Assembly (NCBI RefSeq): GCF_004421105.1
Contig: NZ_CP038033.1
Span: forward strand, 3,801,659-3,865,658
Reading direction: 5' to 3'
Length of the DNA stretch: 64,000 bases
Origin: Nitrosococcus wardiae
GTDB lineage: Bacteria; Pseudomonadota; Gammaproteobacteria; Nitrosococcales; Nitrosococcaceae
Of the stretch, positions 13,579 through 14,481 are shown in pieces. Positions within the stretch are counted from its first letter, which is position 1. Each line of letters opens with the position of its first letter. The notes beneath the pieces are model-generated. The model saw only the letters and a list, made by a program, of their open reading frames with translations. It did not search any database and was not told the origin of the DNA. A program made the position numbers and the translations under genes.

Positions 13579-13616
13579 CAAAAAAAAAGCCCCGTCCAAA
13601 GGAACAGGGCTTTTTT
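13579..13616 (-). terminator. Rho-independent terminator
   Basis: A hairpin GCCCCGTCC-AAA-GGAACAGGGC is flanked by an A-run on one side and a T-run on the other, so it can work in both directions. It lies just downstream of the small gene at 13644 and before the phosphatase gene. Confidence 0.85.
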
Positions 13617-13643: not shown

Positions 13644-13847
13644 TTAAGGAAGGTCTTCCCATTCTTTGCCTTCCCCATAGTGAAGCCAGAGTTTGGCGGC
13701 TGTTTCGCCGACTTTCTCACCTAACGCTGCCGCAGTTATCCCTCCCACCAGGCCGCCTATGGCGAGAGACCCTCCTCGCATGCTGGCCATGGTCTTGTTA
13801 TCAAGTTCCTCGTGCCGTTCCAAATCTTGAACAATTAAACATGTCAT
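13644..13847 (-). CDS. Small double-glycine-leader peptide, glycine-zipper-like core
   Basis: The 67-residue product starts at ATG 13847 behind GAGGAGG. The first 26 residues (MTCLIVQDLERHEELD... ending MASMRGG) resemble a leader ending in Gly-Gly. The rest, SLAIGGLVGGITAAALGEKVGETAAKLWL, is a glycine/alanine-rich hydrophobic stretch like bacteriocin-type cores, followed by an acidic tail. The neighbouring gene (13899-14051) has the same leader pattern with a different core. No transporter or modifying enzyme is next to them. A secreted peptide is inferred. Confidence 0.7.
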   Translation of the reverse strand: MTCLIVQDLERHEELDNKTMASMRGGSLAIGGLVGGITAAALGEKVGETAAKLWLHYGEGKEWEDLP

Positions 13848-13898
13848 TGCCGTATCCTCCTCGCTTGGCAAAAATATTCGTTATCTGGGGCCTAGATA

Positions 13899-14051
13899 TC
13901 AAAAAATAGGCCCGGGATTAGGAAACGTGGGTCCCGGACGAGGATAGATGATGCTAGACACTCTCCCTTTACCGCCTTTGATAGCAAGGGCCATTGCTTT
14001 TTTATCAAGTGCTTCGTTCCTCGCTAGGTCTTTGATTACCAAATGAGTCAT
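13899..14051 (-). CDS. Small double-glycine-leader peptide, proline/glycine-rich core
   Basis: A 50-residue gene: ATG 14051 has GGAGG seven bases upstream, and the stop is TGA 13899-13901. The leader MTHLVIKDLARNEALDKKAM aligns residue by residue with that of the next gene: M-T-x-L-(I/V)-(V/I)-x-D-L-x-R-x-E-x-L-D-x-K-x-M-A. It ends in KGG. The predicted core KGRVSSIIYPRPGPTFPNPGPIF is 23 residues, rich in Pro. The conserved leader with unrelated core argues for a real precursor peptide gene. The function is unknown. Confidence 0.7.
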   Translation of the reverse strand: MTHLVIKDLARNEALDKKAMALAIKGGKGRVSSIIYPRPGPTFPNPGPIF

Positions 14052-14481
14052 GATTTGTCCTCCTTAATGGGTGAACATCAAAGCTGTTAACTCAAGCGCC
14101 ATGCTTTGGCTCTCGCCTTTGAAGCCATTGCCCGCACTTACTTGAGATCATAGGCAACCGGTATGCCAACTCCTCCGACTTAAAATTTAACTTTCTGAAT
14201 TGTATTTTTTTATAGAAAAAGCAATGAATCTGTTGCCACAGCGACGCTATTAAAAAGTTGTCTGTCAAAAAACACAGCAGCGCCCCCCTGTTAGCTTTTC
14301 AATAACATAGTGCGATCGGAAGCAGGGATAGCATATAAGGAGAGTAAGGCTCAGATCAGAGCTTGCACCTACTTTGTCTTTGCTCGAATATCAAGCGCAG
14401 AGTTTAACTACTAGTACTTACTAGAGGGCCAGGGTTTAACGCCTGAATGCCCCCCAGCCCTCATTCAGGGAGATGAGATAA
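14052..14481. other. Intergenic stretch without recognised gene
   Basis: About 430 bases hold the promoter region of the two small leader-peptide genes and lead to the membrane-protein gene at 14482. I see no convincing open frame or RNA gene. Confidence 0.5.

Follow-up and report, generated by a model that had tools for sequence, protein, structure and literature searches.

Two tiny neighbouring genes in the genome of Nitrosococcus wardiae, whose predicted products share a leader ending in Gly-Gly and then diverge into unlike cores, raise the question of whether such short reading frames are genes at all and, if so, which machinery would handle their products and for what end. Both of them are encoded on the reverse strand of the window, that is, the whole stretch of 64,000 nucleotides that was analysed, where the following features are found:

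14153 to 14168, reverse strand: predicted -24/-12 promoter of the sigma-54 type (score 10 of 11), 117 bp ahead of the start codon of gene 2
14059 to 14063, reverse strand: GGAGG ribosome-binding site of gene 2, read from the sequence
13899 to 14051, reverse strand: gene 2, a 50-residue precursor with an ATG start
13971 to 14051, reverse strand: leader of gene 2, residues 1-27
13902 to 13970, reverse strand: core of gene 2, 23 residues, rich in Pro and Gly
13856 to 13860, reverse strand: GGAGG ribosome-binding site of gene 1, read from the sequence
13644 to 13847, reverse strand: gene 1, a 67-residue precursor with an ATG start at 13847
13770 to 13847, reverse strand: leader of gene 1, residues 1-26
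13647 to 13769, reverse strand: core of gene 1, 41 residues, rich in Gly and Ala
13589 to 13605, reverse strand: weak terminator-like stem followed by a T run, directly past gene 1

Gene 2 lies upstream of gene 1 and the two are 51 bp apart, a spacing compatible with a single transcript for both, while a scan for terminator-like sites found two in the region against a mean of 1.6 in shuffled sequences. The mechanical list of ORFs started gene 1 at an upstream TTG, although the ATG at 13847 is preferred because it matches both the leader register and the ribosome-binding site. A sequence-only reading of this locus had pointed to strong GGAGG sites on both genes, a common Gly-Gly leader and unrelated cores, and all three observations stand: besides the two sites listed above, the leaders align at M1, D8, L9, L15, D16, M20 and the GG, with one extra residue ahead of the GG in gene 2, and Gly plus Ala account for 34% of core 1 as opposed to the 39% of Pro plus Gly in the 23 residues of core 2. 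The related species N. halophilus has this pair too, with order and setting unchanged, which allowed the coding status to be assessed. Gene 1 shows 11 synonymous and 2 non-synonymous codon changes between the species, both of the latter in leader residues, and the 41 codons of its core show 7 and 0, respectively, the encoded core being identical; gene 2 shows 8 and 2. These counts, together with shuffled and other-locus controls, rule out chance ORFs, and both genes, intact in N. wardiae, are real. The gene 2 orthologue of N. halophilus is longer (76 residues; L018, G001:C2:1038570-1038797) and has a core of 49 residues compared to the 23 in the window, a difference owed to the number of PGPTFP-like repeats, which is expanded in N. 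halophilus. Pfam matches of the window proteins to C19orf12 and Abhydrolase_9 (E 0.04-0.05) were below the cut-off and were taken as noise, and the gene 1 protein had no match among 72,556 plasmid records.

The leader turned out to belong to a family. A profile of 26 columns was built from 14 Nitrosococcus leaders, the two of the window included, among which D8, L9, L15, D16 and M20 are invariant. This profile has exactly two matches in the 64 kb window, genes 1 and 2, and none in 1.6 Mb of triplet-shuffled DNA or around 40 other ABC-transporter loci, the latter a far smaller test set (196 kb). At E<=0.0015, it detects 16 leader genes in N. wardiae (a 17th match of 12 residues, E 0.1, was left out of the count), 16 in N. 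halophilus, and none in two other Nitrosococcus genomes (G002 and G003). The earlier reading had proposed to search relatives for the leader and count the genes per genome, with a lack of homologous leaders elsewhere as the sign that it was wrong; matches were found in N. halophilus as well as in the loci, mostly from Burkholderiales, described below. It had also taken a conserved leader followed by a variable core as the mark of exported or modified peptides; this pattern is present among paralogues of unlike core type, where the leader is the sole common part, but not in the comparison between species. Over 12 gene pairs of N. wardiae and N. halophilus, the 313 leader codons differ by 33 synonymous and 27 non-synonymous changes, and the 705 core codons by 121 and 42 (raw counts, not normalised for sites), figures that indicate purifying selection on the leader genes and cores conserved no less strictly than leaders. 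Such conservation does not look like that of a toxin in an arms race.

Most Nitrosococcus cores of the family are of two types, A and B, both rich in Asn and Gln (N+Q of 25-26% in one example of each), which by eye account for 11 of the 16 genes of N. wardiae and 10 of the 16 of N. halophilus and often sit as neighbouring pairs. Unlike these main cores, those of the window are not N/Q-rich, and each of them occurs in one copy per genome. No model scored above the cut-off in NCBIfam (11 members tested) or Pfam (7 members tested). A fold prediction for a B-type precursor reached a mean pLDDT of 44 and was set aside. In several of the loci L142-L221, genes near the exporter have yet another type of core, rich in Arg, behind leaders like MATIVIKDLPENMDLDR; the 50911 gene of N. 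wardiae is similar to these.

The next question is which machinery could act on these leaders. Inspection by eye of the ORFs beside the window pair recognised no transporter or modifying enzyme, as the earlier reading had stated, and the C39 domains of the N. wardiae genome lie elsewhere. That reading had suggested looking for a C39-peptidase ABC exporter in the rest of the genome, and one is indeed there, distant from the pair: PF03412 (C39) domains occur in N. wardiae and N. halophilus and in neither of the two other Nitrosococcus genomes. The N. halophilus exporter, a protein of 1016 residues, combines two cyclic-nucleotide-binding stretches with C39, ABC membrane and ABC ATPase domains, and retains what we take to be the Cys and His motifs of the C39 peptidase. 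Around it are genes for HlyD, PpiC-type, outer-membrane efflux, FHA and PP2C proteins and for two sigma-54 activators. To extend this picture, exporter relatives were collected by scanning a species-genome collection, and the best 80 of 252 were kept (71-74% identical); they come mostly from Paraburkholderia, Caballeronia, Cupriavidus, Noviherbaspirillum and Aromatoleum, with Paraburkholderia xenovorans LB400 and Cupriavidus necator among them, plus the proteobacterial MAGs L150 and L153. Sixty-eight of these loci were available with both flanks, and all 68 contain the exporter and a sigma-54 activator (PF00158; median identity to the N. halophilus protein, 69%), 67 a PpiC-type gene, 61 each a channel, an FHA and a HlyD gene, and 60 a PP2C gene. 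Median offsets match the Nitrosococcus order and orientation is the same except for two PP2C genes; matches to the second activator (FHA445) fell on the first and were not counted. The scanned conserved genes of the locus include no known modifying enzyme and no receptor gene. Of the exported or modified peptides initially envisaged, export is the likely purpose, and there is no sign of modification. A caspase-like protein (PF00656) with Sel1 repeats adjoins the exporter in Nitrosococcus (L045:404-3073; L038:15769-18770) and elsewhere in just one of the 68 loci.

Leaders and exporter are found together. The profile, built on Nitrosococcus and blind to these other loci, gave 170 matches in 70 of the 80 exporter loci at E<=0.001 with no length limit, or 163 in 68 when open stretches above 250 residues were skipped, and the 131 distinct leaders obtained show the same pattern as those of Nitrosococcus. 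Whole-genome searches in 18 of the 80 genomes found leader genes in all 18, from 1 to 16 each; the 10 genomes lacking a match at the locus, all among these 18, have 1-16 of them elsewhere, some just past the fetched stretch. In a sample of the class (369 genomes), a close exporter is present in three, all of them with leaders, compared to one genome with leaders (E<=0.001) among the 366 without a close exporter (Fisher 4.8e-7); six genomes at E 0.017-0.05 were dropped as partial matches, in longer frames or near a contig end. In a sample of the phylum (398 genomes), which shares genomes with the former and is not independent of it, exporter and leaders occur in exactly the same three, G000 (N. 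wardiae), G658 and G724. Within Nitrosococcus, both are present in two of four genomes and both missing in the other two. Near-full-length but more distant relatives of the exporter (35-37% identity), in seven genomes of the class sample and five of the phylum sample, come without leaders, which indicates that the pairing is specific to the close exporter clade. The one exception, G241, an assembly of 190 contigs, has two leader genes (L056 and L066) and no close exporter was found in it, a case explained either by an assembly gap or by a different exporter. One of these two genes has a sigma-54 site and a Pro-rich core.

A second feature shared by the leader genes is their predicted sigma-54 promoter. 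In the 80 loci, a -24/-12 site lies 56-112 bp upstream of 114 of the 123 leader genes that are first in a run, whereas such a site occurs in front of 42 of 869 control genes and in 128 of 2980 sequences shuffled by dinucleotide; these counts, and those of half-sites in the same loci, use the set of 163 matches, 14 of which lack a Met start or 150 bp of upstream sequence and were omitted. In Nitrosococcus, a site scoring at least 9 of 11 precedes 19 of 23 first genes, the remaining four having no good promoter, and none of nine second genes; three later-added N. halophilus genes, two of them with the promoter, are included here. Seen from the genome side, 6 of the 29 strict matches in N. wardiae sit 98-105 bp before leader genes, and 8 of the 29 in N. 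halophilus 98-115 bp before them, where far less than one would be expected. Moreover, the 111 upstream regions taken from the 80 loci contain 181 CCAACA/TGTTGG half-sites (shuffles have 12 on average), and 171 of them fall 100-160 bp before the -24 site; the Nitrosococcus figures are 15 against 3 in 17 regions. The promoter of the window pair is less typical: its last base departs from the strict pattern and an enhancer-like half-site is absent at the expected place, whereas the N. halophilus counterpart, 115 bp upstream, is a strict match and has one. A C-terminal MNRSHLQ-x-LLKKH helix is alike in the activators of the eight loci inspected and of both Nitrosococcus species, and the activator encoded next to the exporter is likely to be the one reading the leader-gene promoters. 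One strict leader-type match of N. halophilus (G001:C2:2066039-2066054) has no detected leader gene behind it, possibly because a cargo gene was lost or displaced there.

Altogether, the two genes of the window very probably encode precursors of small exported proteins and form one operon of a dispersed sigma-54 regulon. RNA polymerase with sigma-54, turned on by the exporter-adjacent activator, would transcribe the pair from 14153-14168; the leader of 26-27 residues would be recognised by the C39 domain of one dedicated type I exporter and cut after the Gly-Gly, and the core would leave through the exporter, the HlyD adaptor and the outer-membrane channel with the help of the PpiC-type protein. 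Cleavage after the Gly-Gly and export are proposed because both are described for C39 exporters in the parts of the literature available to us (PMC10986499, PMC4997328). As expected of substrates of this class, both window genes have leaders of 26-27 residues ending in GG, and a cognate C39-ABC exporter is encoded in the genome, intact in N. halophilus and disrupted in N. wardiae. Against the proposal, the pair lies far from the exporter and its promoter is not a strict match.

The state of the exporter in N. wardiae deserves attention, since the idea of a machinery acting in trans is borne out by its presence elsewhere in the genome and yet this machinery looks broken. Compared to N. halophilus, where exporter, adaptor and PpiC copies are intact, the exporter gene of N. 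wardiae is out of frame from the C39 domain into the membrane part, owing to two indels of one base each, and also contains a nonsense substitution; a single nonsense substitution falls within the protein in each of the HlyD adaptor and PpiC genes, and the FHA and caspase-like genes are frameshifted, while the activator, PP2C and channel genes are open. Two further stops, one of the two in HlyD and that of the barrel protein, lie ahead of a plausible start and were excluded from the lesions. With 210 synonymous and 35 non-synonymous differences between the two exporters, the loss looks recent. We also considered that the exporter is intact and that stops and frameshifts are errors of the assembly, the D1FHS genome having been obtained from PacBio reads of MDA-amplified DNA according to the accessible part of its report (PMC4830845), a route that would fit the single-base indels of the exporter, FHA and caspase-like genes. 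This explanation seems improbable to us, given that the lesions of exporter, adaptor and PpiC include nonsense substitutions, that the reads amount to around 560 times the genome from the figures in that same part of the report, and that disruptions gather at this locus: one test flagged six of its 10 genes, five of which were retained as disrupted, whereas at six other loci, L049 being left out, it found 4 disrupted among the 38 orthologues covered to 60% or more. The leader genes themselves show damage in 4 of 16 cases in N. wardiae (two without the second Gly, one without a start codon and one without a core) and in none of 16 in N. halophilus (Fisher 0.05, with classes set after looking). 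The trans machinery of N. wardiae is thus probably dead, and the species may produce the precursors while having lost this way of exporting them.

Peptides with GG leaders and C39 exporters are an already known kind, and several characterised systems offer a comparison. Class II microcins and colicin V with CvaB combine a GG leader with a C39 ABC exporter, a HlyD-type adaptor and an outer-membrane channel; our system differs in that no immunity gene was recognised, in its many conserved N/Q-rich cores and in its sigma-54 regulon. The Fap/Fil functional amyloids are similar in their small, N/Q-rich exported subunits and C39 peptidase, and a relative occurs in the same genome, but Fap subunits are secreted by way of a Sec signal and a pore in the outer membrane, and are not known to rely on an ABC exporter. 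A further likeness is offered by the EbfG1-4 proteins and PteB of Synechococcus elongatus PCC 7942, described in the accessible portions of two reports as small GG-motif proteins that a C39-peptidase transporter exports and that biofilm formation requires (PMC4997328, PMC9981879), with EbfG1-3 forming amyloid (PMC9981879) and PteB having a HetC-like domain layout (PMC4997328). Set side by side by these descriptions, both systems have small GG-motif proteins in several paralogues and a C39-peptidase transporter, although EbfG genes are co-transcribed beside the transporter gene and the leader genes studied here are dispersed under predicted sigma-54 promoters. HetC of Nostoc PCC 7120, as described in the available part of its report, also joins a cyclic-nucleotide-binding domain, which binds ppGpp in vitro, to a C39 peptidase and an ABC exporter in one chain, its substrate being stated to be unknown, with no GG-leader or adaptor gene nearby (PMC10986499). 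The exporter described here shares this one-chain architecture, judged by description, but it has a second nucleotide-binding domain and is accompanied by an adaptor, a channel and candidate substrates. Both elements of an EbfG-like system, a GG leader and a C39 exporter of HetC-like layout, are found, the PteB/HetC layout being taken from what those reports describe.

What the cores would do outside the cell is the least certain step. The role we tentatively consider most likely, at slightly less than an even chance, is that of extracellular matrix or adhesive proteins in the manner of EbfG, by analogy with that precedent and from the N/Q-rich and nearly Cys-free cores (N 13.7%, Q 6.3%, C 0.2%, with a median length of 68 residues over the 80 exporter loci), the multiple paralogues and their conservation. 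Since the window cores are not N/Q-rich, a matrix role fits this pair less well, and they may have an accessory or separate job. The same export pathway could also serve bacteriocins or class II microcins used against competitors, a reading encouraged by the Gly/Ala-rich nature of core 1 and by GG leaders being called typical of secreted bacterial antibiotics in the available part of PMC4997328. It is unlikely, however, given the strict conservation of cores between species, down to the absence of any non-synonymous change in core 1, the N/Q-richness of most family cores, the failure of any bacteriocin or microcin model to pass the cut-off among the members tested, and the fact that no immunity gene was recognised by eye at the window pair or at the Nitrosococcus leader loci. 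Somewhat less likely still is that the exported cores are signals sensed by neighbours: their small size, the sigma-54 control and a nucleotide-binding exporter would match regulated release, and a signalling peptide has been proposed as the cargo of HetC, whose layout is similar (PMC10986499), but up to 16 different precursors per genome, with cores of that median length, and the lack of a receptor gene among the conserved locus genes argue otherwise.

Two further readings concern other ways of processing the precursors. That the peptides are modified RiPP precursors is very unlikely, despite one member weakly matching the radical-SAM RiPP leader TIGR04149 (E 0.016, below the cut-off), as the conserved locus genes are transporter parts and regulators with no modifying enzyme, and the cores are nearly devoid of Cys. 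We give even less credit to maturation by a stand-alone C39 peptidase of the FapD/FilB type; this protein is intact in N. wardiae, but it belongs to its own Fap/Fil-like locus, where the small signal-peptide-like proteins share a different motif, MDxVTA, and the leader genes track the ABC exporter across genomes. The Fap/Fil-like locus (L047:5835-9595 in N. halophilus, L040:11555-15204 in N. wardiae) is open in both species; its stand-alone peptidase matches NF050078 and NF058616, both below the cut-off, a weakly FapF/FilC-like protein accompanies it, and it is possibly a second matrix system.

Within the literature covered (top-ranked matches, by title and start of the abstract, with subscription papers mostly outside coverage), there was no description of this leader family. 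What is new in that scope is the family itself and its close tie to an exporter clade, along with the dispersal of its sigma-54 regulon and the cargo left orphaned in N. wardiae. Leader genes are also present in three large Caballeronia records of the plasmid collection (NZ_CP049317.1, NZ_CP049157.1 and NZ_CP071130.1; 1.3-2.0 Mb), which list no feature at the leader match in a gene table that is incomplete. These unlisted genes and the lack of Pfam and NCBIfam matches indicate that leader genes are easily overlooked. For an exporter of HetC-like layout, candidate cargo can here be listed across the genome along with a promoter code, in a system that also occurs in culturable soil bacteria such as P. 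xenovorans LB400 and C. necator, and N. wardiae is a natural example in which cargo genes persist after their exporter. In the broadest reading, for which our confidence stays a little below the halfway mark, Burkholderiales and some Gammaproteobacteria would have an unnamed secretion-and-matrix system, where sigma-54 would govern a regulon of scattered genes for as many as 16 small proteins with one leader and several types of core, and these proteins would pass through one nucleotide-gated peptidase exporter flanked by FHA and PP2C genes and assemble extracellularly; N. wardiae would then show us such a system with its decay in progress, the pump lost first and the cargo and the switch left behind.
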